Source of the DNA: Candidatus Poseidonia sp.
GTDB lineage: Archaea; Thermoplasmatota; Poseidoniia; Poseidoniales; Poseidoniaceae
Length of the DNA: 64,000 bases
Direction of reading: 5' to 3'
NCBI GenBank assembly: GCA_030829545.1
Contig: JAURAI010000003.1
Span: 62,001 to 126,000, forward strand
A program made the translations under genes and the position numbers. The notes under the pieces were generated by a model. The model did no database searches, had not been told where the DNA came from, and saw nothing but the letters and a program-made list of their open reading frames with translations. Numbering within the stretch: the stretch's first letter is position 1; every line of letters starts with the position of its first letter. Shown here piece by piece: positions 21,101-37,269 of the stretch.

Positions 21101-21144
21101 TGCTCCAACGGTTGCATTCATGAGGGAGTGGCGTCGCCCCTGTC

Positions 21145-22269
21145 ATGGGGAAGCGCATGGATTTGGACCGTCACGATTTCGAACTCGATGAGTTGATGGA
21201 ACGCATACGAGCGAATGACAACCGCCTCATAGCACTTCAAGTTCCTGAAGGATTGAAAATGCAAGCCTTGGAAATGATGGATACGATTGAGACGGAAACC
21301 AGTGCACAAGTTGTCCTAGCTGCTGACCCTTGCTACGGTGCCTGTGATCTCGTGCACGACAAGATGCAACTCATGGGCGTGGAAATGGTTGCACACATGG
21401 GCCATTCCCAAATGAACATCGATTCGGGCATGCCTACACAATTCATCAACGTCACCTACAAGGGAGACCCCGAACTTCAGCCAGTCATCCCTTGGCTTGA
21501 ACAGCACAGAGCCATGGCTCAACAACGCCTTGCTGCACAAGACGCTCCCGACTCAACGATGAGCGAAGAAGAGGCTCAAGAACGATTCATGGACGCTGTG
21601 GGCCGTATGGCGCCCCTCACCAACACCAAACTTGGCTTGGTCGGCTCCATCCAGCATCTTCACTTGCTTCCTGAATTCCATGACCGTCTCGAAAAGGCTG
21701 GCTTTGATGTCACCATCCCTATCGGCGGCGCTCGCTTGTCCTTCCCCGGGCAGGTGCTCGGGTGCAATTACTCCGGTGATGACCCGAGCATTGGACACTA
21801 CCTCTTCCTCGGAAGCGGTGACTTTCATCCGATTGGTCTCGTCCTCCATACCGGCAAGCCATTGGCCATGTTGGACCCTTATACCGGAGACGCAGAGGAG
21901 ATGTCGCTTGAGCGCATCGAGCGCATCCTACGCCAGCGCTTCGGCCTCATCATGAGCGTTCAAGATGCGAATTCATTTGGAATCCTCATCGGAGAAAAGC
22001 CTGGTCAGATGCGCAGAACACTCGCCTTGCGAATGAAGCGCATGTTGGCTCAACACGGAAAGAAGGGTTACTTGCTGGCGCTTGAACACGTCGGACCGGA
22101 ACTCATTGACTTCTATCCGGTGGACGCATTCGTGAACACTGCTTGCCCCCGCATCGCAATTGATGATGCCGTGAAGTATCGCAAACCCCTCATCACACCT
22201 TTTGAGCTCGAAGTTGCCTTGGGTGAGAAGAAATGGGAATTGGGCTACCAATTTGACGAAATTCCTTGA
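21145..22269 (+). CDS. dph2: Diphthamide biosynthesis radical enzyme Dph2
   Basis: Transfers the 3-amino-3-carboxypropyl group of S-adenosylmethionine to a histidine of elongation factor 2, the first step of diphthamide formation, using a non-canonical [4Fe-4S] radical mechanism. The three cluster cysteines are in LAADPCYGACDL (around Cys60-65), GQVLGCNYSG (mid-protein) and FVNTACPRIAID (near 330). LGSGDFHPIGL and IGEKPGQ match archaeal Dph2. Length 374 is slightly above the usual ~330-350 because of an acidic segment around residues 118-145 (APDSTMSEEEAQERF). ATG at 21157 is an alternative start four codons in. Confidence 0.93.
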   Translation: MGKRMDLDRHDFELDELMERIRANDNRLIALQVPEGLKMQALEMMDTIETETSAQVVLAADPCYGACDLVHDKMQLMGVEMVAHMGHSQMNIDSGMPTQFINVTYKGDPELQPVIPWLEQHRAMAQQRLAAQDAPDSTMSEEEAQERFMDAVGRMAPLTNTKLGLVGSIQHLHLLPEFHDRLEKAGFDVTIPIGGARLSFPGQVLGCNYSGDDPSIGHYLFLGSGDFHPIGLVLHTGKPLAMLDPYTGDAEEMSLERIERILRQRFGLIMSVQDANSFGILIGEKPGQMRRTLALRMKRMLAQHGKKGYLLALEHVGPELIDFYPVDAFVNTACPRIAIDDAVKYRKPLITPFELEVALGEKKWELGYQFDEIP

Positions 22270-22296
22270 TTGGCCCTGATTCAACAGAAGAAATCA

Positions 22297-22310
22297 GGCG
22301 TTCCAACGCC
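22297..22310. promoter_or_regulatory. 14-bp palindrome upstream of cdc6
   Basis: GGCGTTCCAACGCC is a perfect palindrome 49 bases before the cdc6 ATG. It contains the TTCCA core seen in archaeal origin recognition boxes, but not the full box with its G-rich end. It could be a Cdc6 autoregulatory or origin-related site. A terminator for dph2 is less likely because no T tract follows. Confidence 0.3.
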
Positions 22311-22358
22311 AATGTGAACCACATCTTTTAGAACGGTTGACATCAGCATTCTCATGAT

Positions 22359-23561
22359 ATGGCAGACTATCTTGACCGCATTGGAGCGGGGTTCATCATC
22401 GCTCATCCAGAGTTCTTGGATTACGATCATGTTCCTGAGGAGCTCGTAGGCCGAGAGGATATCCAATCCGAGCTGGCTTCAAAATTCTCTGCCTTAGCAT
22501 CACCGCAGGGAGCAGCCAGAGCCGTCATCACCGGTCCAGTGGGAAGCGGGAAAACCGTTCTCGCCAAAACCTTCTGTCGCGACCTTCAGCGTCATCTGTC
22601 CGGAAAAAGGGAACTGAAAGTGGCGCACATCAACTGTCGAAATGCATCGACGAGCATGCGTGTTGCCCAGCGAATCTTGCATCAATTCGACCCTGGACAC
22701 CCAGACCGTGGACTTTCGATGGGCGAACTGCTCCTCAGTTTACGAAAAATGCTACGACGAACATCGACCCATCTGATCATTGTGCTTGACGAAGTCGACC
22801 ATATGTTGCGCCGGTCCGGGGATGAATTGCTCTATCAATTGCTTCGCATTGATGAGGACCAAGAGGGAACTGGCAGCGTATCCATCATTCTCATCAGCCA
22901 AGAACAAGTGTTGGATGTGCTTGAAACCGCCGTTCTTTCAAAATTTGGCCAATCCAATCACCTCCGCATACCTTCCTACGATGTCAATGGCCTTGAGGCC
23001 ATCATCCGACAGCGGGCGAAGGCTGCACTGGTGGCCGGCACGTGGACCGACGGCATACTCCGGCTGTTGGCCGAAAAAGCCGCTCCGGGTGGAGATGCCC
23101 GACGCGGCATTGAATTCCTCGCCAGTGCAGCAGAACGCTGTGAGTTCCGTCAAGACGAACACAGCATCAAAGAGATCAGCATTGATGACATCAACGCTCT
23201 CAACGATACGCTCGCTGTGGATACGATTACAAAACTCGAGATTGTCGACGACCTCTCCGGTCAAGAAATGCTCGCACTGCTGGCGATGTGTCGGCGGCTC
23301 AAGACAGAAGAATCCATGACGATGGGTGACGTGGAGAAACTGTACACTGTGGTCTGTGAAGAGTATGAACAGCGACCGAAAAGTCACACGACGCTTTGGA
23401 AATACATCAAAGCGATCGAGGTGCAAGGCGTTATCGAATCACGCGTGGCAACCGTCCCCGGAGGGCGTGGCCGTACGACGCACATGAGCATGCCTCATTT
23501 CCTCCCGGCAGACCTCGCAAGTCGCCTTGAGTTGCTTCTTCCAAAGCGATTACGCCGCTGA
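22359..23561 (+). CDS. cdc6: Orc1/Cdc6 replication initiator
   Basis: AAA+ protein that binds replication origins and loads the MCM helicase. The 400 residues include VGREDIQSELASKF (sensor of the Cdc6 N-terminus), Walker A GPVGSGKT (59-66), Walker B LIIVLDEVD (Asp144-Glu145), sensor 1 SIILISQE, the sensor 2 region PGGDARRGIEFLASA near 245-260, and a C-terminal winged-helix domain (about 310-400) with the beta-wing in VATVPGGRGRTTHMS. All catalytic residues are intact. Archaeal cdc6 genes often lie beside an origin; the 89-base spacer upstream has only one small palindrome, so an origin here is possible but not shown. Confidence 0.93.
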   Translation: MADYLDRIGAGFIIAHPEFLDYDHVPEELVGREDIQSELASKFSALASPQGAARAVITGPVGSGKTVLAKTFCRDLQRHLSGKRELKVAHINCRNASTSMRVAQRILHQFDPGHPDRGLSMGELLLSLRKMLRRTSTHLIIVLDEVDHMLRRSGDELLYQLLRIDEDQEGTGSVSIILISQEQVLDVLETAVLSKFGQSNHLRIPSYDVNGLEAIIRQRAKAALVAGTWTDGILRLLAEKAAPGGDARRGIEFLASAAERCEFRQDEHSIKEISIDDINALNDTLAVDTITKLEIVDDLSGQEMLALLAMCRRLKTEESMTMGDVEKLYTVVCEEYEQRPKSHTTLWKYIKAIEVQGVIESRVATVPGGRGRTTHMSMPHFLPADLASRLELLLPKRLRR

Positions 23562-23587
23562 AGAAATCCTCACGGCAGACGATGGGG

Positions 23588-23595
23588 CTAAATAC
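23588..23595 (+). promoter_or_regulatory. TATA-like box for the S6e operon
   Basis: CTAAATAC lies 37-44 bases before the rps6e ATG in a 70-base spacer after cdc6. It predicts a short leader that still contains the GAGAGGTG ribosome site. It is the only AT-rich box in the spacer. Confidence 0.45.
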
Positions 23596-23631
23596 GGGTC
23601 GTGAGTCGGAGAAATCCCGAGAGGTGCTACT

Positions 23632-24120
23632 ATGGCTGGTAACGATGCTGAATTTATTGCAGTGGTCAACGATACAGACCCGAAGAACGGCGGAAAATCC
23701 TACGCTTTGAAAATCACAGGAAACAACCACGCTCAGATTTTAGGCAAGCGCATCGGCGATGTTGTTGACGGAATTTTCGTGGGCGAGGGTGACAAAACCC
23801 TTTCCGGATACAAATTGGAAATCACTGGCGGCTCCGATAAAACTGGAACGCCCCTTCGTCGAGACCTCGATGGAGGCTCACGCCAATCCATTCTCGTCAC
23901 CCAATCTACGGGTTACAAGGGTGAAGTGGTCGTCCACAAGAAAAAGGGCGGCGACAAGAAGCGATTCCGCTACAAGCCTGACGGTCTTCGTCGACGACGA
24001 AACTTCCGTGGCAACACCATTACTCAAGACACCCGACAAATCAACCTGAAAGTTGTTGAGTCCGGTAAGAAAACCCTCAACGCCATCCTTGCTACTGAAG
24101 CTGAAGAAGCAGCGGAGTGA
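23632..24120 (+). CDS. rps6e: Ribosomal protein S6e
   Basis: Small-subunit protein found in archaea and eukaryotes. The 162 residues show the family core: KSYALKITGNNHAQILGKRIGD-type start (split here at residues 22-43), SGYKLEITGGSDKTGTPLRRD and the GGSRQSILVTQSTGY strand, then a basic segment DGLRRRRNFRGNTI and an acidic AEEAAE tail. GAGAGGTG precedes the ATG. It leads an rps6e-aif2g-PIN cluster, a gene order common in archaea, so it is probably co-transcribed with them as a translation operon. Confidence 0.95.
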   Translation: MAGNDAEFIAVVNDTDPKNGGKSYALKITGNNHAQILGKRIGDVVDGIFVGEGDKTLSGYKLEITGGSDKTGTPLRRDLDGGSRQSILVTQSTGYKGEVVVHKKKGGDKKRFRYKPDGLRRRRNFRGNTITQDTRQINLKVVESGKKTLNAILATEAEEAAE

Positions 24121-24159
24121 ACCCGAGAGGGCGTTCGTTGAGGATGAGGAGGGGGAAGC

Positions 24160-25398
24160 ATGGCACGAGAGCTTCCCGCACAACCTGAAGTCAACATTGG
24201 ACTTGTAGGTCACGTTGACCACGGTAAAACCACCCTCACTCAAGCGCTTTCAGGTGTTTGGACCGATACCCACTCTGAAGAGCGTAAGCGTGGTATCTCA
24301 ATCAAACTTGGATATGCTGATACGGCATTCTACAAAGACGATAGCGAACAGTACTATGCAACGGGAAAGCGCCCCGATGGAGGCGAAGACGTCCCCAAAG
24401 AATTGCAGCGTGTTGTTTCATTTGTTGATGCACCAGGTCACGAGACCTTGATGGCGATTATGATCACAGGGGCTTCAATCATGGACGGTGCCATGCTGAT
24501 GGTTGCTGCCAATGAGACCTGCCCACAACCTCAAACACGTGAGCATTTGATGGCCCTTGAAATGGCCAACATTGAGAACATCGTCATTGTGCAGAACAAA
24601 ATTGACCTTGTGACACGTGAGCGAGCGATGGAGTCCCACAATGAAATCAAGGAATTCCTCAAGGGCACCATTGCTGAAAACGCTCCAATTATTCCAGTCT
24701 CAGCGCACCACGACGTCAACCTTGACATTTTGATTCAAGCCATCGAAGCAACCATCCCAACACCTGACCGTTCTGCCGACAAGCGCTCCATCATGCATGT
24801 TGCACGCTCTTTTGACATCAACCGACCCGGTACTCGCCCTGCCAAACTGAAAGGTGGCGTCATCGGAGGAAGCATCGTGGAAGGTGAATTCAAAGAAGGC
24901 GACGAGGTCATCATCGGCCCAGGTCGTAAAATTGAGAAAGGAAACAAATCATCTTGGGAACCTATTCACGCTGTAGTAAGCAGCATGCAGGGCGGTGGCC
25001 GTAATCTTGAATCCATGCATGCTGGTGGCTTGTGTGGCATGGCAACTTACCTTGACCCGTCCATAACGACCTCGGACAATCTCTCCGGGCAGGTCGTTGC
25101 TCGAAAGGGGCAACTTCCAGAAGTTCATTCCTCCATCAGCATCAGTGTCAATTTGATGTCGCACATGGTATCTGGTGATGGAGAGGCTCCTGAGAAGATA
25201 CAGCCGCTGCGAAATAACGAGATGCTGATGCTCAACGTCGCTACTGCAACTTCCGTCGGCGTTACCCGAAGCGCTGAGAAAAGCCGAACCAATTTGGACC
25301 TACGACTGCCTATTTGCGCCGATAAGGGTCAACGCATCTCACTCTCACGACGCATTGGTTCACGCTGGCGACTTATCGGCTACGGAACCATTGAATGA
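24160..25398 (+). CDS. eif2g: Translation initiation factor aIF2 gamma subunit
   Basis: GTPase subunit of the heterotrimer that carries initiator Met-tRNA to the small ribosomal subunit. G1 GHVDHGKT (17-24), G3 DAPGH (90-94), G4 NKID (146-149), and the SxHSEERKRGISIKLGYAD switch region are intact; domains II and III follow to residue 412 with normal length. The zinc-knuckle loop after the switch region, which in many archaeal homologues holds two CxxC pairs, is here AFYKDDSEQYYATGKRPDGGE with no cysteine, so zinc binding is lost. GAGGAGGGGGAAGC precedes the ATG. Confidence 0.96.
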   Translation: MARELPAQPEVNIGLVGHVDHGKTTLTQALSGVWTDTHSEERKRGISIKLGYADTAFYKDDSEQYYATGKRPDGGEDVPKELQRVVSFVDAPGHETLMAIMITGASIMDGAMLMVAANETCPQPQTREHLMALEMANIENIVIVQNKIDLVTRERAMESHNEIKEFLKGTIAENAPIIPVSAHHDVNLDILIQAIEATIPTPDRSADKRSIMHVARSFDINRPGTRPAKLKGGVIGGSIVEGEFKEGDEVIIGPGRKIEKGNKSSWEPIHAVVSSMQGGGRNLESMHAGGLCGMATYLDPSITTSDNLSGQVVARKGQLPEVHSSISISVNLMSHMVSGDGEAPEKIQPLRNNEMLMLNVATATSVGVTRSAEKSRTNLDLRLPICADKGQRISLSRRIGSRWRLIGYGTIE

Positions 25399-25408
25399 GG
25401 CAAGAGGC

Positions 25409-25786
25409 ATGCAAGCAGTTCTCATCGACGCGTGTGGATGGGCTGCATGCATTGATGCCAAATTGAACATCCAACATGAGATGGAGGCCTTGCTCGGTCC
25501 CTGTGAATGGTTGCTGATTCCAAAGGTACTCGAGGAACTCGTCGACCTCGAACATCAACGTCCCGCTGGCAAAGGATTACTCCTTGACTTGCTACGATCG
25601 AAATCAACCCTCATTGGTGAAGAGCACATCGGCCATACCGACGATCTTCTTCTTGAATTTGCTAAGGAACATCAGGCTGCAACACTTACGGTGGATACCG
25701 AATTGAAGCGACGTCTCTTTGAGGCAAACCTTCGTGTCCTTGAAGTCAAACAGGCGAAGTATCTCCACCTTGTTGATTTGCTATAG
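25409..25786 (+). CDS. PIN-domain RNase-like protein
   Basis: A 125-residue PIN domain: VLIDACGW (first Asp near residue 6), a mid-protein PKVLEELVDLEH with acidic residues, HTDDLLLEFA and TLTVDTELKRRL supplying the remaining metal-binding acids. It belongs to the archaeal stand-alone PIN group related to Fcf1/Utp24, commonly encoded beside aIF2 gamma and inferred to act in rRNA or RNA processing. No antitoxin gene is adjacent, which argues against a VapC toxin. ATG at 25409 follows GAGGCAAGAGG and lies 10 bases after the aIF2 gamma stop. Confidence 0.85.
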   Translation: MQAVLIDACGWAACIDAKLNIQHEMEALLGPCEWLLIPKVLEELVDLEHQRPAGKGLLLDLLRSKSTLIGEEHIGHTDDLLLEFAKEHQAATLTVDTELKRRLFEANLRVLEVKQAKYLHLVDLL

Positions 25787-25791
25787 AAGCG

Positions 25792-26091
25792 TTAAGGTAG
25801 CGTGAACAGGACGTCGTCTCCATGACCGTCTAGCCAACCGATTTTCACGCCAGCATCAATCCACGCATGCGCATAATTGATAGCACCGAAGGCACGAACA
25901 AGGTCACCTTGCTTGGCGAAATGTTGAGCATCTGATGCATAATCATCGGCCATCCTCAGCATCACGGCTAATTGTTGACCTTCTGCTGAAGCTGGTTCAA
26001 CGAGTGGGGTTGCCTTATCACGTGCCCGAGTTGTGATGTCGAGATACTTCTCAACGCGCTCAAGGGTTACATGATCCATGGATTCACTCAT
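25792..26091 (-). CDS. DUF357 family protein
   Basis: A 99-residue archaeal helical protein of unknown function. Its signature is clear: MADDYASDAQHFAKQGDLVR followed by AFGAINYAHAWIDAGVKIGWL. The gene start overlaps the stop of the upstream beta-propeller gene by four bases, and that gene overlaps the AAA/winged-helix gene by one base, so all three are co-translated. This context offers a functional link that the DUF alone does not. It is convergent with the PIN gene, with only five bases between them. Confidence 0.85.
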   Translation of the reverse strand: MSESMDHVTLERVEKYLDITTRARDKATPLVEPASAEGQQLAVMLRMADDYASDAQHFAKQGDLVRAFGAINYAHAWIDAGVKIGWLDGHGDDVLFTLP

Positions 26092-27140
26092 TCGCCACCC
26101 TCCTTTTGCCGTTTGAGGAGACGACGTGCGTCTTCACTCCTTCCAAGTGCTTCATACAATTCAATGGCCAAGGATAATTTCCCAAGGTCTTCTGCTTCCT
26201 GTGCTCGTAGGAACATTTGGCGTCGCTCGTCCCAATTCCTTGCCATGGCTGCTTCTGCAACCGCCTTGTATCTGCCTTCACGCTCTGCTTCTGCGAGATG
26301 AGGAGCAGTCCATCGACGAATCAGCCCATCGCGTGTACCTGTTGCCATGGCGTCTGGGGTACACAGCACCAAGAGGTCACCGAGGTTCATACTCTGAGTT
26401 AGAGGCAAGGGTACTTCTTCAACCGGTTCAACGGTGCTCATTGAATGAAGATGACCTTCAATGCCTAGTACCCACCAGCCATCGCCTGTTCGAACACCCT
26501 CCATCGGTTCAAGGGACGTTGTTTCCAATCGTTCCAAATGGTCCCAACCGAAGGGGTGCGGAACACCTTCCCACAATCCTCCGTCACCGCTCTGTAAGAG
26601 CAGACGTCCGTCTTTGAGTTGAGAGCACCAACTCCATGAGCGATCTTCCAACTTACGCTTCTTATCGTCTCCAGTAATTCTGCCGCACCAGAGAGCACCA
26701 CTGGTATCTTGCCACAGAAGGTGCTCACGGTCGAGCCATCCCACCAATCGACGAATGGGGCCGGTCTCGACGCGTCGGATGCCACGCCCTTCATTGGAAA
26801 AAAGGTGCAATTGGCCTCGACGGCCTGCAAGTACCCAACCCCCACCTGGCCGGTGAGCGAGGTCACTGAATCCACCAGGTGCGCTTCTGCCTTCGTGCAC
26901 CATGGCCCCCGTTGAGCTGTTCATGAGATAGAATCCGTGTGCAGCAAGCAGGCCAATCGTCCCTCCAGAGGCTACAGCGGCATGGACTTTGAACGGTACT
27001 TCAACTCGCCAACGAATACTTCCATCCGCTTCCAGAAGGGTCAAATTCAATCCTGCACTTACCAATACGCCACCTTCTGCAGCAGCCATGGCGGCAATTC
27101 TTGCGTCTGCTTGCCAGGACCAAGCAACGTTCCACGACAT
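26088..27140 (-). CDS. Beta-propeller (WD40/PQQ-like) protein with helical C-terminus
   Basis: About 350 residues without signal peptide. Repeated blade-like units of about 40 residues carry small-residue turns followed by Trp or aromatic strands: EGGVLVSAGLNLTLLEADGS, GGGWVLAGRRGQLHLFSNEG, DTSGALWCGRI, KDGRLLLQSGDGGLWEG, GDGWWVLGIEGHLHSM and TRDGLIRRW. Residues about 285-345 form TPR-like helices (AIELYEALGRSEDARRLL). Both parts are protein-interaction modules, so a scaffold role for its operon partners is a reasonable inference. The TAATG junction at 27138-27142 couples it to the AAA/winged-helix gene, and it overlaps DUF357 downstream. Confidence 0.75.
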   Translation of the reverse strand: MSWNVAWSWQADARIAAMAAAEGGVLVSAGLNLTLLEADGSIRWRVEVPFKVHAAVASGGTIGLLAAHGFYLMNSSTGAMVHEGRSAPGGFSDLAHRPGGGWVLAGRRGQLHLFSNEGRGIRRVETGPIRRLVGWLDREHLLWQDTSGALWCGRITGDDKKRKLEDRSWSWCSQLKDGRLLLQSGDGGLWEGVPHPFGWDHLERLETTSLEPMEGVRTGDGWWVLGIEGHLHSMSTVEPVEEVPLPLTQSMNLGDLLVLCTPDAMATGTRDGLIRRWTAPHLAEAEREGRYKAVAEAAMARNWDERRQMFLRAQEAEDLGKLSLAIELYEALGRSEDARRLLKRQKEGGE

Positions 27141-29011
27141 TAGAACTCACCTCCATTGAGTCCGCCCCAAGCAATTAATTGAGCACGAGCGGTTTGAGTA
27201 AGTTGGTAATTACGTGAACGGCCGACCTGCCTGACCTGCAAAATCCCATGCTTCAGCAGACGATTGCTGATTTGTGAAAGTCGGGCTCGCTTGATTCCAA
27301 GATGGCCAAGCATTTCCTTGTCTGAGGGAGAATAAGAGCGTTGATGGGCCATACTGACCACATAAGCATCCCTCATGTTCAATGAATTCAATTGGTTTTT
27401 GTTCAAGGGGTAGGTCTCCTTGGAACCTAACTGGGCCTGCTGCCGAGATTCAAAGAATTTCATGATGGAAGGGTCCAAACTTGTTCCACTGGCATTTCTT
27501 GTCCCTCCAAGGTTGGCAACAATCTCTGCGAAAAGTTGCACGAGTTCGCTTTGTGAATGAACGTGACTCGTGACGTTCTCAGATGAGAATTCCGCAACTG
27601 GCTGTTCATTGATATCTTCGTGTTCAGCAATCGGTTCGGGAATAAAATCGATTTCTTCAACGAGCCCAATCTCATCGTGAATCAATTCTGCACCGTTGAG
27701 GTCCTCAAGTTCATCCTCAGGCAATTCAGGAGTTTCAATGGCAACCCAATACTGATTCCCCTTTTCACTCACGACGGAATGCTGCACATTTTCCTCGAAA
27801 TCAGGATCGCTTTCTTCCTTTGTGATTTGCTTACTGTGTGCTTTATTTCGTTGTGCCAATCGTCCAAATGGACCTGTTGGGATTGATGAGCCACCGCCGT
27901 ATTCAGGCGCTGAAGCGTCGATAATTGGGGTTGTAAATGGCGCAGGTTGCAGGGGCTCATCTGATTCTTTCGCCTCAGCCAATTCAGTCATGTTCAAATC
28001 AAAGAGATCCCCAAATGCACTTTCTTCAACCTCGTTCGTATCATCACGTTCGGTCCAAGGCTGAGATGCATCAATAATATCGGTCTTGAAAGCCAAGGAG
28101 GATTCAATCTCCTCATCATCAGGGGTTGAAGGCAAGAAATCATCCATCTCAACGGTATAAGTCGCGTCATTGGTCTCTTGAACAGGAGCACTCATGATTT
28201 GACCCAACGTACTTGGCCCGTCTCTTGGAAGCAATTTTGCCGATGTATCCACTTCAGTTCGGCCAAGTCCGACGCCTTCATCCATACGAAGGGAATCAAC
28301 CGCATTACGCAACATCGTGATGATGGCTGCGGGGAAACCATCGCCCTCCTCAAGCAGTTTTGTTGCATCCTGAAAGGTGAAATCGCTTTCACTGACCCCC
28401 AACGAAGCCAGCCGTTGCTTGACAAGAGCAACAACATCTGACGGAGTAAAGGGGTGCAAAGGCAAGCGTTCGTAGGTATCCACGACACCTTTGGGGAGTT
28501 GATGGCGTTCTCGAGCCTCACAAACCAATATTACGACCGCTTTAAGTCGTTCAATGCTTGATTGAGCATCACGCAAGGCCACCTTGAGGATTGAAAGATC
28601 ACTCGCTGGAACATCGATCACAATCATCGGAAGTTTGTTGTTAAAACCGTACATTTCAGCGACCAATTGGTTCACCAATTCAACGCGACCGGAAGGTGCT
28701 TCAGCGCCCAACAATTGCTTGTAAATCATGTCAAGCAGGGCTTTAGCGGGATTGATGGCGGGAAGATGCTCGATTGAAGCATAAGCGCCCGCATAGGGCT
28801 TGAGGCATCGAACCAGCGATGTCCGACCAGAACCAAGTGGGCCGGTTAGCATGATACGCCGCGCTGACCCAAGGCGGAGATAATTCTTGAGTCGGTTGAA
28901 CACTTCATCGCGACCAACCATTTTCCCAAGCTCCCCTGGTTCAAGGGGGCGAATCGAAAATGGATTCTCATTGAGGAGTGGGAGCCCGTAAGCATAGCTT
29001 TGCTTAACCAT
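27140..29011 (-). CDS. AAA-type ATPase-like protein with Arg in Walker A and a winged helix
   Basis: About 623 residues. The N-terminal domain (25-260) resembles Orc1/Cdc6 and STAND-type AAA modules: MVGRDEVFNRL, then Walker A TGPLGSGRTS in which the essential Lys is Arg63, and a weak Walker B (MIVIDVPASD) lacking the DE pair. ATP hydrolysis is therefore doubtful. A long acidic linker (about 270-510) follows, then a C-terminal winged-helix DNA-binding domain (about 545-615: SPSDKEMLGHLGIKRARLSQ, SNRLLKHGILQVRQVGRSRN). A TATA-like GATATACT at 29031-29038 lies about 24 bases before the ATG at 29011, suggesting a leaderless transcript. Divergent from HMG-CoA reductase across an array of ATTAACGC sites, which it might bind. 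Confidence 0.75.
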   Translation of the reverse strand: MVKQSYAYGLPLLNENPFSIRPLEPGELGKMVGRDEVFNRLKNYLRLGSARRIMLTGPLGSGRTSLVRCLKPYAGAYASIEHLPAINPAKALLDMIYKQLLGAEAPSGRVELVNQLVAEMYGFNNKLPMIVIDVPASDLSILKVALRDAQSSIERLKAVVILVCEARERHQLPKGVVDTYERLPLHPFTPSDVVALVKQRLASLGVSESDFTFQDATKLLEEGDGFPAAIITMLRNAVDSLRMDEGVGLGRTEVDTSAKLLPRDGPSTLGQIMSAPVQETNDATYTVEMDDFLPSTPDDEEIESSLAFKTDIIDASQPWTERDDTNEVEESAFGDLFDLNMTELAEAKESDEPLQPAPFTTPIIDASAPEYGGGSSIPTGPFGRLAQRNKAHSKQITKEESDPDFEENVQHSVVSEKGNQYWVAIETPELPEDELEDLNGAELIHDEIGLVEEIDFIPEPIAEHEDINEQPVAEFSSENVTSHVHSQSELVQLFAEIVANLGGTRNASGTSLDPSIMKFFESRQQAQLGSKETYPLNKNQLNSLNMRDAYVVSMAHQRSYSPSDKEMLGHLGIKRARLSQISNRLLKHGILQVRQVGRSRNYQLTQTARAQLIAWGGLNGGEF

Positions 29012-29030
29012 GGCCGAGCAACTGAACCCT

Positions 29031-29038
29031 AGTATATC
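29031..29038 (-). promoter_or_regulatory. TATA-like box for the AAA/winged-helix gene
   Basis: GATATACT on the minus strand, about 24 bases upstream of the ATG at 29011 with no ribosome site between them, the geometry expected for a leaderless archaeal transcript. Confidence 0.5.
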
Positions 29039-29070
29039 ATCTTTGAGCAAATCAACACGACAGGCAAAGC

Positions 29071-29173
29071 CGTTAACTCATGTTAATCATTAAGCGGAGC
29101 GGTATTTCAATTCTGAATTAACGCATCATTAACGCTAGATTAACGCGTTAATTTATCCGTTAAAAGCGTTAAT
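29071..29173. repeat. Phased ATTAACGC/GCGTTAAT site array
   Basis: Three exact ATTAACGC copies start at 29117, 29128 and 29139, an 11-bp period. The third forms a 14-bp perfect palindrome ATTAACGCGTTAAT (29139-29152) with an inverted copy; a further inverted GCGTTAAT lies at 29166-29173, 21 bp on, with a partial CGTTAA at 29158. Upstream, CGTTAA (29071), GTTAAT (29082) and ATTAAGCG (29089) are diverged copies. The sites therefore face one side of the helix, as expected for cooperative binding of a regulator or an origin-type initiator. The array lies between the divergent AAA/winged-helix and HMG-CoA reductase genes. Confidence 0.8.
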
Positions 29174-29251
29174 TCGCCCGCCCCGAGGTGAGATGTTAGA
29201 GGCGATTGATTCAAGGAACGGTTCGGCCACCCAAGGCATGAGGAATCACTG

Positions 29252-30547
29252 ATGCCAGTTGAAAACAGCCGATTCAAAGGGTTCTACAATCATTCTGTAG
29301 AAGAACGCCGCAATCTCATTGCCAAAGCTGCAGGCTTGGATAGTGCACATGTAGAGGCCCTCGCCGCCCACGGTGAACTGGATGAGGCTGCTGCAAGTCG
29401 AATGATTGAAAACGTCATTGGGACGATGTCCTTACCCGTAGGAGTTGCAACAAACTTTGTCATCGATGGCGAGCATTACGTGATTCCATTTTGCCTTGAG
29501 GAATCAAGTGTCGTGGCTGCTGCATCAAACATGGCCAAACGATGCCTTGCAAAGGGTGGCTTCAGGACACAAAACGATGACCCGGTGATGATCGGTCAAT
29601 TACAAATGCTCGATATCAATGACATTTCTGTGGCTTCATCGGCTATTTTGGCGGCAAAAGAGGACTTAATTTCATTTTGCAACGACATACCGTCTCGCAT
29701 GATCTCGCTTGGAGGTGGGTGCAAGGACATCCAAATCCGAGAGATTTCAACCTCACTGGGACCCATGATGATCGTCCACCTCCTTGTTGACTGCCGTGAC
29801 GCTATGGGTGCGAATGCCGTCAACACGATGGCCGAGCGTGTTGCTCCGCAACTTGAACAACTCACTGGCGGACGAGCCCATCTTAGAATCCTATCAAATC
29901 TCGCAAGCCATCGACTTGCACGTGTTGAAGCCACCTTTACCCCCGAAGAGATGGCCTCAAATGGAGAACGTGAAGACGGTCTTGCAGTGATTGAAGGCAT
30001 TCTCGAAGCACAAGCCTTTGCAGTGAGTGACCCGTACAGGGCTGCAACGCATAACAAAGGCATCATGAACGCCATTAGCAGTATCGCCCTGGCATGTGGA
30101 CAAGACTGGCGTGCGATTGAAGCAGGATGTCACGCCTATACGTCTCTTGAGCACGGTCAATACACCTCCATGTCAACGTGGACACAACATGAAGACGGAG
30201 ACCTCGTTGGTTCGATGGTCTTGCCCATGGCAGTAGGCATTGTTGGTGGAGCCTCCAAGGTACACCCTGCTGCGAAGGCGAATCTAGCCATCCTCGGCGT
30301 CACATCAGCGCAGGAATTGGCTGGAATCATGCTGTGTGGTGGCCTCGCACAAAATTTGGGCGCATTACGAGCCCTGTCTACAAAGGGTATCCAAGCAGGT
30401 CACATGAAACTCCATGCAAAAAACATGGCTGTGAGTGCCGGAGCAGTTGGCGATGAGATAGAAATCCTCGCTACACGAGTTCAGGCCTACGAAGGTGCCC
30501 GCACTCAATCAATGGTCGAAGCATGGCTCAAAGAGATGCGTTCGTGA
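29252..30547 (+). CDS. mvaA: HMG-CoA reductase, class II
   Basis: Reduces 3-hydroxy-3-methylglutaryl-CoA to mevalonate for isoprenoid (archaeal lipid) synthesis. The 431-residue length and motifs are those of the class II bacterial-type enzyme (Pseudomonas mevalonii group): ENVIGTMSLPVGVATNF (Glu53), DAMGANAVN (183-191), NKGIMN (Lys269), DWRAIEAG (Asp285) and GHMKLHAKNMA (383-393, catalytic His). Class I enzymes of most archaea have a different pattern. Ribosome site GAGG lies a few bases before the ATG. A divergent, multi-site control region precedes it. Convergent with scpB, five bases apart. Confidence 0.93.
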   Translation: MPVENSRFKGFYNHSVEERRNLIAKAAGLDSAHVEALAAHGELDEAAASRMIENVIGTMSLPVGVATNFVIDGEHYVIPFCLEESSVVAAASNMAKRCLAKGGFRTQNDDPVMIGQLQMLDINDISVASSAILAAKEDLISFCNDIPSRMISLGGGCKDIQIREISTSLGPMMIVHLLVDCRDAMGANAVNTMAERVAPQLEQLTGGRAHLRILSNLASHRLARVEATFTPEEMASNGEREDGLAVIEGILEAQAFAVSDPYRAATHNKGIMNAISSIALACGQDWRAIEAGCHAYTSLEHGQYTSMSTWTQHEDGDLVGSMVLPMAVGIVGGASKVHPAAKANLAILGVTSAQELAGIMLCGGLAQNLGALRALSTKGIQAGHMKLHAKNMAVSAGAVGDEIEILATRVQAYEGARTQSMVEAWLKEMRS

Positions 30548-30552
30548 TAAGT

Positions 30553-31167
30553 TCATTCTTCCTCACTTACTGGAAGGGGAGCCTGAATTGTACCTGAATC
30601 TTCACTTTCTTCCTGAAGAATTTGTTTTCGTTCACCAAGTTCATCCAAGAGCCCGGAGGATTGAACTTGTTCTCGAAACCACGCCTTTACCTTTTTCCGG
30701 TCAGTGTGAGGACAACCAAAGGCTTCTGAGAAACGACGGGTTGTAGAGAGGCGACGTGTATTTCCATCTTTGCGCCGATCTACCATGCCGAGTTGGGCCA
30801 ATTCACGAACATAATCGTACGCTTTTTGCCCCAATAATTCCACAAGCCGTGACTGCGGCATTGGCTGGTGATAGGCAATCAATGCTGCAGCCTTGAGCAA
30901 CTTAGGCGGCATGTCGGTTTTAGCATCCTTTGGAAGATGTGATGCAATACTCGGTTTGACCTCAAGAGCCCAACGTTCACCCACTGCTGCAAGTTGCAGG
31001 GACCCGACCTTACGTCGTTTGATGGTAGCTTGAAGGGAATAGAGACAATCGAGCATTTCATCCTCGTCATAGCCCAATGCCTGGGATAACTCACCAGTGG
31101 ACATGGATTTACCGGAACTAAACAAGGTCGCCTCAATAAGCGTTTCAAGTGGCAATTCTGTCATCAT
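30553..31167 (-). CDS. scpB: Chromosome segregation and condensation protein ScpB
   Basis: Winged-helix partner of the SMC-kleisin condensin. The 204 residues carry the ScpB pattern: LIEATLFSSGKSMSTGELSQ at the N-terminus, LKAAALIAYHQPMPQSRLVE and the YDYVRELAQLGMVDRRKDG wing of the second winged helix, then an acidic tail. Third gene of smc-scpA-scpB; nine bases follow the scpA stop. A strong AAGGAGGTGA precedes tandem ATGs at 31167 and 31164. Confidence 0.9.
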   Translation of the reverse strand: MMTELPLETLIEATLFSSGKSMSTGELSQALGYDEDEMLDCLYSLQATIKRRKVGSLQLAAVGERWALEVKPSIASHLPKDAKTDMPPKLLKAAALIAYHQPMPQSRLVELLGQKAYDYVRELAQLGMVDRRKDGNTRRLSTTRRFSEAFGCPHTDRKKVKAWFREQVQSSGLLDELGERKQILQEESEDSGTIQAPLPVSEEE

Positions 31168-31176
31168 TTCACCTCC

Positions 31177-32370
31177 TTATTCAACCAGCCATTCGTGGTC
31201 GCTGAAATCTGATTCTGAAGGTGCTTCCTCCAGACGCTCTTTCTGTGCGATAGCATCCAAGCGAGCCTGCCGCCGAGTCGCCTTCTCTTCTGCTACCCGT
31301 GCACGCTCAGCAATGGCTTCCATTCGGTGCACAGAGCCTGTAGCATCACCCTCAATGCCGTCTGAATCTTCAGCCATCAAGGACTCAATTTCGTCCAACA
31401 CTTCTTGAAAGTTATCAAGATTTGGCCAAAGATCTTCGATCATAATGGCTTCGAGTGCCTCACCATCTTGAGAGATACTTGCCATGCGGCGATGGGTCAG
31501 AAATAATCCAGCGATGAAGGAAGCAACGAATGCTTCACTGTCAGGATCGTGGAGTTGGTCGCCAAAAGTCGAGGTGAGGATCGGTTTGAGTTTCACCATC
31601 ACATCAACGAGTCGTACTGAGGACGAACCAGCTTCCTCGCAGGTGGATTTGAGTGCTCTCCAACAACGCTCAATATCCCCTTCAAGGTCTTCATTGTGCA
31701 TGCGACCTCCAACATTGGCAAGGTATTCACTGAGTTCACGTTGATGTTCAATTCGGTTCAATTCACGTTGCTGCAAGGCTTCCGCATCATCTGCTGCATC
31801 CTTGAATGCTGACAGCAATTCACCAAGGGTCACCGGCCTGCCCTCATCACGGCGAACACGTCCGTCAAATAACGAGGGTAAGATTTCGTCAGCCTCGCCT
31901 TCGAGAATGGATTGTGTGAAGAAATAGGCCTCATCGTCATAGTCCGATTCCCAACCAAAGCCAAGGTCCTCTTCCCATGTATCCTCTTCATCTTGCAGTT
32001 GTATTCGGTCAAACAGCGTAGCTGATTGCTGGTGCAACACCTCCCACGAAAGTCGAATTAATCTTCCACAAGCAGGTAAATCGAGGTTTTCATCATCCTT
32101 CACGCGTAGAGCGAAGACATTCAAAAATGCGGAAAGGTCAACATTCCAAGGGTCAAATTCTTCCTCTCGGACCAGTGAAAGTACCAACGCAACCGAGCGG
32201 TCAAAGGGGTCGTGAAGACTTTGATGCTCCGCTTCCTCAGTACCTGCGATGCTCACAATTCGCTGACTGAATTGTTCAGCATCTTGGCGCTCTTCACCCG
32301 ATGCAAGGAGCTGGTCGATGATGTCCTGTTGGAGGAACCATCGGTCAAGAACACCTTGTTGTTCAGCCAC
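31177..32370 (-). CDS. scpA: Kleisin-like segregation and condensation protein ScpA
   Basis: Bridges the two SMC heads. FDRSVALVLSLVREEEFDPW followed by NVDLSAFLNVFALRV near residues 57-95 is the ScpA N-terminal SMC-neck-binding region, and LIRLSWEVLHQQSATLF follows it. The C-terminal half (about 245-330) has the winged-helix-like VKLKPILTSTF segment. At 397 residues it is longer than bacterial ScpA (~250) because of an acidic central linker (about 130-240) and an Ala/Arg/Glu coiled-coil tail. The start is a GTG at 32370 with GAGGTGATT upstream; nine bases separate it from the smc stop. Confidence 0.85.
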   Translation of the reverse strand: MAEQQGVLDRWFLQQDIIDQLLASGEERQDAEQFSQRIVSIAGTEEAEHQSLHDPFDRSVALVLSLVREEEFDPWNVDLSAFLNVFALRVKDDENLDLPACGRLIRLSWEVLHQQSATLFDRIQLQDEEDTWEEDLGFGWESDYDDEAYFFTQSILEGEADEILPSLFDGRVRRDEGRPVTLGELLSAFKDAADDAEALQQRELNRIEHQRELSEYLANVGGRMHNEDLEGDIERCWRALKSTCEEAGSSSVRLVDVMVKLKPILTSTFGDQLHDPDSEAFVASFIAGLFLTHRRMASISQDGEALEAIMIEDLWPNLDNFQEVLDEIESLMAEDSDGIEGDATGSVHRMEAIAERARVAEEKATRRQARLDAIAQKERLEEAPSESDFSDHEWLVE

Positions 32371-32379
32371 ACAATCACC

Positions 32380-35300
32380 TCATGCCTCTTCCACTGATTC
32401 AATCGTTGCTTCTTCCGTGGAGTCATCATCCACGAGTTGATTGGCAACTTCTGCTCGCTCATTGATGTCCTCTGTCGTTTCCTGAGTTCGCTCAACCAGG
32501 CCGCCGAGGGCGGGTTCTTCTGGTGTTGAAAGGTGTGGTAGCAAACCTCCCAGACTTTGAGGCACGGCGAGGTCATCGGGAACCCGAGGCATGTCTTCTG
32601 TGGCCAAGACAGCATCTTTGATACGCGTTTCATTCTTGTCAGCGTCTTTCTGAGCCTCCTTAAGGGCGGCTTCACCAAGTGCAATCGCCCGTTCTCGGTC
32701 GAAATCAAGGATACGGCGACTGCATCCATCTCCACCGTGAGTGATGCCGATGTGATGGTCTGCCAATTTGAGCGATACTTTACGCAAGGTCACCATGATG
32801 AATTGAGCCCGCTTGCTGCGCTGACGGCACATCTTTGCGATTCGTTCTGCGTTGTAAGCGTCGAGATTCTGGTCAACTTCGTCAAAGTAGTAAAACGGAC
32901 TTGGATCGTAATCCTGAATGGCAAAGATGAGTGCAAGAGCAGCCATCGATTGCTCGCCGCCAGAAAGTTGTTGCCGGCTGACCTTGGATGATTTGCCTCG
33001 TGGCTGGGCCCAAAGTTCGAGCCCTGCCTTGAAGGGTTCGTCTGGATTTTCGAGGAAGAGTTCCCCTCGTCCACCATCGGAGAGTTCCTTGTAGGATTCT
33101 TTGAAATTTTCATTCACTTGTTCGAGCACGTCGATCAGGCGTTCCTTACGCTGAGATTCCAATTGTTCTGTAACATCAATCAAATCTTTTCTGCGCTTTT
33201 GGAGTGTTGCAAATTCATCCTTCATCAAGTCCAAACGTGCTTGACATGTTTCATATTGCTCAATGGCCATCATGTTGACGTTTCCAAAGCCTTCCATACG
33301 ACGCTGCAGGTGGCGTAGCTTTCGTTCAACTTCTGCCACATTCCCGAGGTTTTCAGGCATAGCAGTAAGGGAAAGCCCCGCCTCAATCAACTCTTGGCCC
33401 ATCAATTGAAGTTCACTCTCCCGTTCTGTGATGGTGCGGATGAGTTCGTCGGCCAAGCGACGGTTGTTCTGGGCCTTTGAAAGGCGTTCTTCATTTCTGA
33501 CGCGTAGTGTGGCGCGCTGTTCGGTCAATTCTTGACGCTCATCTTCGAGGCCTTGGTTTTCCTCAAGGTAAACGGCTTGCTCGTCTTTCTTGGCTTTGAG
33601 TGAAATCTGATCGGTTGCTAGTTCTGCTTGCAAATTATCAACACGTTCACTGCGTGCGAGGGCTGCGGCTTCAAAGGCTGTGACTCTGGCATCAATCTCG
33701 TTGACGCGGCGCAGAAGCAGTTCTTCATGCGCTGCTCCGTTGGAGATGGCTTCCTCAGCTTTTTCCTTGACGCCTGTGGCACTGACTCGCTTCAAATTTG
33801 CAGCATGCATTCGCTCGCGTAGGTGTTCAGGGCTGGCATCTTCGAGTTGTTGCTGTGCTGAACGTTGGGCTTCAACGACCGCCTCGTGTTGCTGCTGAGC
33901 TTCATCATGCGAGATGAGAGCCTTTTGTGCATCGATACGAAGTTGTTCCAATTTGTGCTCGAGGCCTGCACAGACCTCTTGCGCTTTCTTGTAGGCGGCG
34001 TTGATTTGTTTCTTTTCGGCGTTCATTTCTCGAACGGCGGTAGCGTGAGTATCATCGACCATTGCATTGATTTGTTGCCGGAGGCGTTGTTGGTTTTCCC
34101 TCGCTTCGCGAAGTGCTGCACGGACAGTTTCTTCCATCAATTCGTAACGCTGAACTTCGGCAGTGTATTTCTCAACATCCGATGCCCCTTGGATGCGTCC
34201 ACCAAAGGAAATCGACATCTTTCGTTGTGAACCTCCGACCATGGCGCCGCCTGCTTCGGTCAAGTCACCACGCAAGGTGACGAGGCGCACACCACCCATG
34301 TGCTTCCTTGCGGTCGCCATCGAATCAACCAGGAGCGTGTTTCGCAACACAAAACGTACGGCAATATCGATGCGTGGGTCATAATCGAGAAGTTCGTGAG
34401 CAAAACCGATCACTCCAGGCTTACGGGCAGTCATCACGGACTTACCGCCTGCCCGGGTATTGTTGAGTTTATTGAGAGGAAGGAAGGTGGCACGGCCAGC
34501 CTTGTTGGACGCTAGCCAGCGAATCGCTTGTGCGGCGTGCTCGTCGGATTCAACGACAACTGATGCCATACCAGCACCGATAGCCGTTGCAAGAGCAAGT
34601 TCGTGACCGTTGTCTTTTGGAGCACATAATTCCGCAATGGTGCCGATGATGCCTTCCAATTCTCCTCGGTCTCGAGCAGCGATAACGGCACTCGCACCGC
34701 CCGCTAAGCCCTTCGCTCCGGACTTTTGTTCCATTTCCGCTTTGGCGAGATTCAACGCACGCTCTGCTTCGCGGAGCTTGACCTCGACACGTGTTCGGTC
34801 TTCTCCAAGTTGAGCTTCTGCTTGTTGGGATTTGTTCAAAGCCGCAGCGAGGGCTTCTCGGTCGTATTCGGGTGCATCTTCTTTCAATTGCTGACCACGA
34901 AGGTCCAATTCGCCCAATGCTAGACGGAGTTCCTCCACCTCTTCTTGAGCGCTCGCAAGTTGTCCGCCAATCAGTTCGGCTTCGAGAGCAAAACGGTCCA
35001 CGTCGGATTGGGCAGAGGAGAGGGACTCCTGACTCGCTTCAACCTTGGACTGTGCATCAGTAAGGGCATTAGCTAAATCTTGATTCTTTTCACCCGCCGA
35101 TTCCAAGGCATGGCGAATGTTGACTTCTTCATCCTGAGCCTCTTTCAAATCCCTCAAGGCAGATTCGAGAGCATCATTCGCTGAACGAAGTTCATTTTGG
35201 AAGCGTTCAAGTTCTCCCTTGGCTTCTGTGCCTTGTTCAACCGTACTGCTCAATTCGATGGCTTCGTCCTCGTCTTCACGCTCAGCATCGCTGATTCGGT

Positions 35301-36255
35301 CGGTATTCAGTTCAATTCGAACTTGAAGTTCTTGGATTGCCTTTCCGAGTTCTGAGGTTTCCCCACCGGTCAATTTGTTGATCTCTTGTTGGAGTTCTGA
35401 AATCTTGTCGTCGAGTTCAAGGAGTAACTTTTCGCTTACAGTGTGCTCGTCAATGAGGTGTTGGCTTTCCGAAAGGTATCGGTCACGCTGCTCCACATGG
35501 AAATCCAATTCATTCTTCATGCTCGCATATCGCGATTGGAGAAGGAGGGTGTTGGTGCGTTGTATTTCATCAGCGACATCCTTGGCCTTTTGAGCCACAA
35601 CCTTCTCCTTTTCCAGCGTCGCAAGCCGGTCGAGTTGTTCCTTTTCCAATAAACCAATTCGCTCAAGATAAGTTTCCACCATTTCTTTTTGCTTGGTTGC
35701 TTTGCGGATTTCATCGTCATAAGATGTCACTCCTGCAACATTATCGAGGACCTTACGGCGTTCGTTGGCGGTCATTTTAGCCAGGCTGGTCACGTCACCT
35801 TGGAGGACGATATTGTATCCGTCTGGACGTGCATTGGCGGCACCGAGGAGACGATGAAACACCTTCTGCGTACTGTCCTCTCCGTTGAGCTGGTAGGTCG
35901 TGACTGGATTGTTTGATGCTGTCAGTCGGATGCGTCGCGACATGCGAATTTCCTCTTTATCCAAAGGCAGTCGGCGACGGCCATTACCCATGACTGGATT
36001 GGCAAAAACAAGCGTTACGCTGCAATCGCGTGCAGGCTTGGAGTTTTTTCCGCCATTGAAGATGAGGTCTGCTGAATTTTGAGCGCGAATAACACGGTTG
36101 GATTTAGGGCCCAGCACGAATTGAATCGCATCTCCACAATTCGATTTCCCTGAACCATTAGGTCCAGTAATCGCCGTGAAACCGCGGTCAAGAGGTACCG
36201 TAACCTCGCCCTTGAACGATTTGAAATTATTCACTTCAAGTGATTTTAGATACAT
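32380..36255 (-). CDS. smc: SMC chromosome condensation ATPase
   Basis: Condensin core ATPase of 1291 residues. Walker A GPNGSGKSN (31-39) lies in the N-terminal head; two long coiled coils flank a hinge at about 520-640 containing GIIGTIAELC and SVVVESDEHAAQAIRWL; the C-terminal head has signature QLSGGEQSMAALAL and Walker B YYFDEVDQNLD. All ATPase motifs are intact. An acidic extension of about 110 residues after the C-head (from HIGITHGGDGCSR on) is longer than usual. It heads the smc-scpA-scpB operon, so the full condensin is encoded. A palindromic site and TATA box lie directly upstream. Confidence 0.96.
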   Translation of the reverse strand: MYLKSLEVNNFKSFKGEVTVPLDRGFTAITGPNGSGKSNCGDAIQFVLGPKSNRVIRAQNSADLIFNGGKNSKPARDCSVTLVFANPVMGNGRRRLPLDKEEIRMSRRIRLTASNNPVTTYQLNGEDSTQKVFHRLLGAANARPDGYNIVLQGDVTSLAKMTANERRKVLDNVAGVTSYDDEIRKATKQKEMVETYLERIGLLEKEQLDRLATLEKEKVVAQKAKDVADEIQRTNTLLLQSRYASMKNELDFHVEQRDRYLSESQHLIDEHTVSEKLLLELDDKISELQQEINKLTGGETSELGKAIQELQVRIELNTDRISDAEREDEDEAIELSSTVEQGTEAKGELERFQNELRSANDALESALRDLKEAQDEEVNIRHALESAGEKNQDLANALTDAQSKVEASQESLSSAQSDVDRFALEAELIGGQLASAQEEVEELRLALGELDLRGQQLKEDAPEYDREALAAALNKSQQAEAQLGEDRTRVEVKLREAERALNLAKAEMEQKSGAKGLAGGASAVIAARDRGELEGIIGTIAELCAPKDNGHELALATAIGAGMASVVVESDEHAAQAIRWLASNKAGRATFLPLNKLNNTRAGGKSVMTARKPGVIGFAHELLDYDPRIDIAVRFVLRNTLLVDSMATARKHMGGVRLVTLRGDLTEAGGAMVGGSQRKMSISFGGRIQGASDVEKYTAEVQRYELMEETVRAALREARENQQRLRQQINAMVDDTHATAVREMNAEKKQINAAYKKAQEVCAGLEHKLEQLRIDAQKALISHDEAQQQHEAVVEAQRSAQQQLEDASPEHLRERMHAANLKRVSATGVKEKAEEAISNGAAHEELLLRRVNEIDARVTAFEAAALARSERVDNLQAELATDQISLKAKKDEQAVYLEENQGLEDERQELTEQRATLRVRNEERLSKAQNNRRLADELIRTITERESELQLMGQELIEAGLSLTAMPENLGNVAEVERKLRHLQRRMEGFGNVNMMAIEQYETCQARLDLMKDEFATLQKRRKDLIDVTEQLESQRKERLIDVLEQVNENFKESYKELSDGGRGELFLENPDEPFKAGLELWAQPRGKSSKVSRQQLSGGEQSMAALALIFAIQDYDPSPFYYFDEVDQNLDAYNAERIAKMCRQRSKRAQFIMVTLRKVSLKLADHHIGITHGGDGCSRRILDFDRERAIALGEAALKEAQKDADKNETRIKDAVLATEDMPRVPDDLAVPQSLGGLLPHLSTPEEPALGGLVERTQETTEDINERAEVANQLVDDDSTEEATIESVEEA

Positions 36256-36269
36256 CCCTATCCCTCTCA

Positions 36270-36325
36270 GTAAGGAAACAAGCCCTTACCTTATTTCTTG
36301 CACCCGTTCCTTACAGCCTTTAAAG
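36270..36325 (-). promoter_or_regulatory. smc promoter with GTAAGG/CCTTAC operator-like sites
   Basis: On the minus strand CTTTAAAGG (36317-36325) is a TATA-like box about 65 bases before the smc ATG. Downstream, in the expected start/leader region, GTAAGG (36270-36275) and CCTTAC (36284-36289) form a 6-8-6 inverted repeat, and a third CCTTAC lies at 36309-36314 next to the TATA box. Such placement suits a repressor or autoregulator. Ribosome site GAGAGGGATAGGG lies near the ATG. Confidence 0.45.
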
Positions 36326-36389
36326 AATGCGAATAATCACGGCTCAGTCACGCGGTTTTCAGACCCCTAGAAGCGAAGCCGAAGAGGGT

Positions 36390-37145: not shown

Positions 37146-37269
37146 CGCTCGCCCCATCCTCAACCAAAGGAATGGACTTCATAGTGATATCGCGAAGCAG
37201 AAGCATCTCAAGCTAGCCATCAGCATGAAGAAGGATGAGGTTGAGGCAGGAGCATCCCGAGGTTTTGAC

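Follow-up and report, generated by a model that had tools for sequence, protein, structure and literature searches.

The window, by which we mean the whole 64-kb stretch of DNA analysed, contains a 240-bp spacer between a gene for an AAA/winged-helix protein (gene aaa-wh, product AAA-WH) and the divergent gene for HMG-CoA reductase (HMGR). This spacer holds eight half-sites (Table 1). The full half-site reads (A/T)TTAACGC, and its core in the array is TAACG/CGTTA. Six of the half-sites make up a distal block, in which three forward half-sites 11 bp apart are followed by three inverted ones spaced 12 and then 9 bp apart (together 21 bp), the forward and inverted halves joining in the 14-bp palindrome ATTAACGCGTTAAT (29139-29152). 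The other two, both inverted, form a promoter-proximal pair with a 10-bp step (29071-29086). The distal block lies 106 to 162 bp and the proximal block 60 to 75 bp before the aaa-wh start codon. Exact copies of ATTAACGC are found at 29117, 29128 and 29139 on the forward strand and at 29145 and 29166 on the reverse strand. The initial annotation had described three exact copies at an 11-bp period, a 14-bp palindrome and an inverted copy 21 bp further on, all of which were recovered. The diverged copies that it reported upstream correspond to the proximal pair, and its list of sites overlooked the inverted CGTTAA at 29158-29163.

Table 1. Positions of the array, its half-sites and the surrounding genes in the window
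Feature	Position	Strand	Remarks
cdc6	22359-23561		passes TIGR02928; ~5.6 kb from the array
Third operon gene, DUF357 protein	25792-26091	-	Pfam PF04010; overlaps the preceding gene
Second aaa-wh operon gene, 350 aa	26088-27140	-	abuts/overlaps aaa-wh; beside it in most relatives
aaa-wh, 623 aa	27140-29011	-	product is the likely binder
Putative core promoter of the aaa-wh operon, TATA-like GATATAC	29032-29046	-	21-35 bp before the ATG; block conserved in spacers
Proximal half-site A, CGTTAA on + strand	29071-29076	-	60 bp before the AAA-WH start codon
Proximal half-site B, TGTTAA on + strand	29081-29086	-	10 bp from site A
Half-site 1, ATTAACGC	29117-29124	+	TAAC core here in 27/27 Poseidoniaceae spacers
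Half-site 2, ATTAACGC	29128-29135	+	11 bp after site 1; 27-spacer comparison
Half-site 3, left arm of palindrome ATTAACGCGTTAAT	29139-29146	+	27-spacer comparison
Half-site 4, right arm of palindrome ATTAACGCGTTAAT	29145-29152	-	27-spacer comparison
Half-site 5, CCGTTAAA on + strand (CGTTAA 29158-29163)	29157-29164	-	less perfect; 12 bp after site 4
Half-site 6, GCGTTAAT on + strand	29166-29173	-	9 bp after site 5, 21 bp after site 4
Conserved block GCGATTGATTCAAGGAAC, possible core promoter of HMGR	29203-29220	+	outside the array
HMG-CoA reductase, divergent neighbour	29252-30547	+	Pfam PF00368, E 1.6e-105

Because a TATA-like block about 25 bp before the aaa-wh ATG is conserved, the aaa-wh transcript is probably leaderless. 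On the HMGR side of the spacer, relatives carry a block like GCGATTGATTCAAGGAAC, about as far from the HMGR ATG as in the window. The genes downstream of aaa-wh abut or overlap at their starts and stops, and on this basis aaa-wh, a gene that we call WD-like and a DUF357 gene appear to form a three-gene operon. The product of the second of these genes has no Pfam or NCBIfam match; it was called WD-like from appearance alone, as a putative repeat propeller.

The divergent aaa-wh/HMGR pair is kept in every examined locus that holds both genes, in both families (Poseidoniaceae and Thalassarchaeaceae). The initial annotation had placed cdc6 about 6 kb away, close to the distance in Table 1; in nearly all genomes the gene lies ~3.5-7 kb from the array, in conserved synteny and not adjacent to it. 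After HMGR come scpB, scpA and smc, and the array sits between cdc6 and scpB-scpA-smc across the order. The wider gene order at 20525-38907 (prt-dph2-cdc6-rps6e-IF2gamma-PIN-DUF357-WD-like-aaa-wh-HMGR-scpB-scpA-smc-nadB) forms a syntenic block in Poseidoniaceae that Thalassarchaeaceae retain for the most part, and in it an isoprenoid gene stands between genes for the initiator and for condensin. The gene between scpB and smc (31177-32370) has no Pfam match and was named ScpA from context alone. In one Thalassarchaeaceae clade (L037, L038 and L041, positions ~1-370), cdc6 lies ~110-130 bp behind DUF357 and is co-directional with the aaa-wh operon.

Conservation and uniqueness of the array

The pattern TAAC-N7-TAAC-N7-TAACGCGTTA-N7-CGTTA-N4-CGTTA is invariant in all 27 distinct Poseidoniaceae spacers from genera g1 and g2, nine of which have TAACG loosened to TAACA at the first site, the second or both. 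The core columns of this comparison reach 2.0 bits, a value meaning no more than that all 27 spacers fit, these columns having been set by the search pattern itself. The bases between the sites average 0.77 bits over the 27 spacers, which indicates that spacing, and not sequence, is what is kept there. Measured to inferred start codons, the array begins 107 bp before the AAA-WH ATG in 19 spacers, 108 bp in seven and 118 bp in one, whereas 13 different distances, from 63 to 122 bp, separate it from the HMGR ATG. The spacer with 118 bp is longer by exactly one 11-bp step, with its proximal pair unmoved. Because the distance to aaa-wh is fixed and that to HMGR is variable, the array belongs to the aaa-wh side of the spacer. 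A fixed position of the sites relative to the regulator's own gene, as looked for in an autoregulatory operator, is found in all 27 spacers and also within other clades.

Elsewhere in Poseidoniaceae, some genera have the start of the block at 106-110 and others at 129-159. In Thalassarchaeaceae it starts mostly near 141, with the half-site kept and the order and orientation of the sites changed; in one clade the half-sites are locked relative to aaa-wh at 141/146/152/169/194/205. From the twenty extra spacers we left out L255, L256, L272 and L273, which were wrongly anchored on an HMGR motif, and L274, which had no anchor. Distal half-sites are gained or lost in genera g6, g8 and g9 (L262, L264, L265, L266), numbering three to six, and the spacing is largely kept. 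Of 142 genomes, 104 carry the 11-bp tandem TTAACG-N5-TTAACG, almost always next to aaa-wh. A Rayleigh test on array position by genus or clade gave R 0.51 at 10.5 bp (p ~0.009); its values being hand-picked and non-independent, we kept it out of the main argument. Alignment in relatives had been set beforehand as a test of the initial annotation, with absent or unphased sites counting against it; the array proved to be present and rigidly spaced across the order, in keeping with the helical phasing claimed for it. The regions upstream of two Marine Group III HMGR genes carry no such array.

The array also stands out from chance expectation. ATTAACGC occurs six times in the window against 0.89 expected, and none of the shuffles gave six. 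In the source genome (1.63 Mb, 28 contigs) it occurs 22 times, five of them in the array, against 16 for the reversed control, and a pattern search of the same 1.63 Mb found no second cluster. We further scanned 2.06 Mb of genome G002, 174 kb of G000, 260 kb of G004 and 400 kb of G128 with a half-site weight matrix, taking as a cluster at least three half-sites within 60 bp. The array was the sole such cluster in these stretches, and five simulated genomes gave at most two half-sites per cluster. The half-site is not enriched genome-wide, with 379 occurrences in G002 against 506-583 in simulations that keep dinucleotide content alone. The scan for site clusters proposed in the initial annotation thus returned the array alone in the sequence scanned. 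A single cluster is as expected for a locally acting protein; a counterpoint is that eight half-sites are many for a regulator targeting its own promoter alone. We found no description of the array element, or of AAA-WH in MGII, in the openly licensed literature, and literature on STAND proteins and partition arrays offered nothing of direct use.

The AAA/winged-helix protein

AAA-WH consists of a degenerate AAA+ domain (residues ~8-248), an acidic and mostly disordered linker of ~290 residues, and a C-terminal winged helix (~538-618). The AAA+ domain is predicted with a mean pLDDT of 92 and the winged helix with pLDDT mostly >90. Of 39 aligned orthologues, 38 have the arginine-substituted P-loop that the initial annotation had pointed out in this protein, GSGR(T/S)S, and the Walker B aspartate is not followed by an acidic residue. 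Because the P-loop lysine is replaced by arginine and the Walker B aspartate lacks a following acidic residue, ATP hydrolysis by AAA-WH appears doubtful. The best conserved part of the protein is the winged helix, where SPSD, RLSQI and GR.R are invariant in all 39 sequences, RLSQI lying in the recognition helix.

Among 243 Thermoplasmatota genomes, AAA-WH was found in Poseidoniales alone, and matches outside the order are short P-loop or HTH stretches. Searches of Pfam, NCBIfam and PDB by sequence and fold yielded generic AAA+ matches and no specific family; the protein in the window matched AAA_16 alone, below cutoff. The Orc1/Cdc6 models TIGR02928, Cdc6_C and Cdc6_lid were not matched by AAA-WH, and ORC-CDC6-like was matched weakly in 9 of 39. 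Foldseek aligned the AAA+ part to ORC, Cdc6, RFC, Hda and TnsC at E ~1e-6 with TM up to 0.63 and no clear favourite, and the predicted structure places this part in the initiator/clamp-loader group with no clear closest family. The protein has the predicted fold combination of Orc1/Cdc6, an initiator/clamp-loader-group AAA+ domain plus a winged helix, but lacks the intact Walker A (GxxGxGKT) and Walker B (DE) motifs of that family. The true Cdc6 of these genomes carries GSGKT and DEVD, and in a profile comparison with it only the AAA part of AAA-WH aligned (probability 52%).

Readings of the array

The array is a real, order-wide and precisely built regulatory element, whose parts are new and whose general kind is known. 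With somewhat better than even confidence, we read it as a cooperative, helically organised operator of the aaa-wh/WD-like/DUF357 operon, most likely bound by AAA-WH itself. The restriction of the cluster to a single locus, its fixed position at the promoter and a conserved DNA-binding domain of the same taxonomic range all fit an operator bound by AAA-WH. Since the array and aaa-wh always occur together within the order, co-conservation by itself cannot name the binder, and it is from sequence that we infer both the binding and the oligomerisation of AAA-WH. The winged helix would read the half-site, the degenerate AAA+ part would hold several AAA-WH subunits side by side on the phased sites, and the distal six-site and proximal two-site blocks would jointly influence the core promoter (about -21 to -35) and so determine how much AAA-WH is made. 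The arrangement of the sites would allow either repression or activation. Repression is the commoner outcome of autoregulation; activation may also be considered because the proximal pair of Poseidoniaceae lies upstream of the putative promoter. In genus g9 and some Thalassarchaeaceae, half-sites abut the inferred promoter elements.

Among known systems, MalT, a bacterial STAND NTPase whose DNA-binding part is a LuxR-type HTH, multimerises on short phased promoter sites. The aaa-wh locus resembles those of MalT-type STAND activators in pairing an ATPase and DNA-binding domain with several short phased sites near a promoter. AAA-WH differs in that its ATPase domain is an AAA+ of the initiator/clamp-loader group, its P-loop is degenerate and its DNA-binding domain is a winged helix, and the Pfam model nSTAND1 gave weak matches in 19 of 39 AAA-WH proteins (best E 2.6e-5) and none for the protein in the window. 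If our preferred reading is correct, an AAA+ protein with a degenerate ATP site that forms an operator-bound assembly in an archaeon would be an unusual regulator. In the surface ocean the archaea of the Poseidoniales (Marine Group II) are very abundant; none has been cultured, and their gene control is little known. An order-restricted protein together with a site whose spacing is kept over two families, the bases between its half-sites having drifted, makes a defined pair for in vitro testing.

The initial annotation had suggested that the winged-helix protein might control both itself and mevalonate synthesis. The first part of this proposal is supported, the array being locked to aaa-wh, and the joint control of HMGR gains no support from the spacing to that gene, which varies freely. 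We consider it fairly unlikely that the array is a shared operator chiefly for HMGR and isoprenoid lipid synthesis, with AAA-WH as a pathway regulator and autoregulation as a by-product. The constant divergent pairing speaks for such a role, as does the array being the sole cluster in the sequence scanned, which leaves HMGR as the only other promoter in reach. Bacterial pairs of this kind are also known: for CrtR of Corynebacterium (PMC5401885), the regulator gene is divergent from an isoprenoid synthesis gene, as aaa-wh is, although CrtR is a small MarR protein and AAA-WH is a 623-aa AAA+ protein whose array is not spaced to HMGR. We nevertheless downgraded joint HMGR control as the main role because of the variable spacing. 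Moreover, the conserved block closest to the HMGR start falls outside the array, Marine Group III has HMGR without the array, and the neighbourhood also keeps cdc6 and smc-scpAB, so that the linkage to HMGR is not special. AAA-WH may still act on HMGR in addition, this being the only other promoter nearby.

It is distinctly unlikely, in our view, that the aaa-wh operator is bound instead by another transcription factor encoded elsewhere. A trans-acting regulator would likewise leave the array fixed to the aaa-wh promoter, and the case for AAA-WH as the binder comes from sequence. However, a regulator encoded elsewhere would normally have more than one clustered target and no other was found in the sequence scanned, and AAA-WH itself carries a conserved DNA-binding domain and occurs in the same taxa as the array.

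Because cdc6 lies a few kilobases away and scpB-scpA-smc follow HMGR, we also considered sites of replication or segregation. At plasmid partition loci of the parC/ParR type, ~11-bp phased iterons lie at the promoter of the binder's operon, which is autoregulated; the binder there, ParR, has a ribbon-helix-helix fold and acts together with an actin-like motor. The aaa-wh locus likewise has ~11-bp phased sites at the promoter of the presumed binder's operon, but no motor gene was recognised there. We give still less weight to the array being a chromosome-maintenance site (centromere-like or SMC-loading) that is bound by AAA-WH, with promoter control secondary as in plasmid partition loci. The single site per genome as far as scanned, the position between cdc6 and scpB-scpA-smc, the predicted initiator/clamp-loader AAA+ fold and the iteron arrays of centromeres such as parC would all suit it, but the operon has no recognisable ParA-, ParB- or SegAB-like protein, the catalytic residues usual in the P-loop and Walker B are missing from AAA-WH, and locking to the promoter suffices to explain the conservation. 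The broader idea that AAA-WH and the array form a single-copy, Poseidoniales-specific nucleoprotein locus (centromere-like or for replication control), coupling chromosome maintenance to its own expression, is likewise distinctly improbable. A chromosome-maintenance site, if that is what the array were, would open chromosome maintenance as a subject in Poseidoniales.

Strand skew around the array

The initial annotation had also entertained iterons of a replication origin and suggested computing skew across the region. We examined skew, both raw and coding-strand-corrected at fourfold sites, in G002 (full 2.06-Mb scaffold), G004, G000 and G128, which cover both families. Corrected T/A skew has the same sign on both sides of the array in each of the four, so no strand-skew sign switch was found at the array in these genomes, and corrected G/C differences across it are compatible with zero, with a marginal exception in G002 at 80 kb (95% interval 0.002 to 0.106). 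In G002, a scaffold with ten 100-base gaps where misjoins are possible, the T/A signal is positive to the left and to the right of the array (695 kb), more weakly so on the right, and the single sharp switch of corrected T/A skew lies at ~1.22 Mb (L171-L172, G002:C1 ~1217000-1228000). The raw GC-skew minimum of this genome at 654 kb was considered as support for an origin and set aside, no sign change being seen there once the coding strand was corrected for. By the usual sign convention, the switch at ~1.22 Mb resembles a terminus more than it does an origin. G128 has its cumulative GC-skew minimum at 104-113 kb and carries the array at 208.5 kb.

The check therefore gave no skew switch at the array, and the suggestion of origin iterons is probably wrong. 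That Cdc6, or AAA-WH as a second initiator, uses the half-sites as origin recognition boxes is very unlikely: the nearby cdc6, the G002 cumulative GC-skew minimum 40 kb from the array and the fact that archaeal origins typically contain repeats to which initiators bind (PMC5333045) are outweighed by the constant T/A sign at the array in four genomes, a G128 minimum ~100 kb away, the sharp switch elsewhere in G002 and an array position locked to the AAA-WH start codon. We call the origin reading disfavoured, and nothing stronger, because scaffold misjoins are possible and genomes with multiple origins can hide a weak one. The locus resembles archaeal Orc1/Cdc6 with origin recognition boxes in its AAA+ and winged-helix domains, its repeats in two orientations and the true cdc6 close by; it differs in the substitution of arginine for the P-loop lysine, the long disordered linker, the profile match limited to the AAA part, and the absence of a skew switch at the array. 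Around the contig's GC-skew minimum in G128, a Thalassarchaeaceae genome (G128:C1 ~104000-114000, L240), intergenic gaps of 250-290 bp lie beside an FtsZ-looking gene, making this a candidate origin region.
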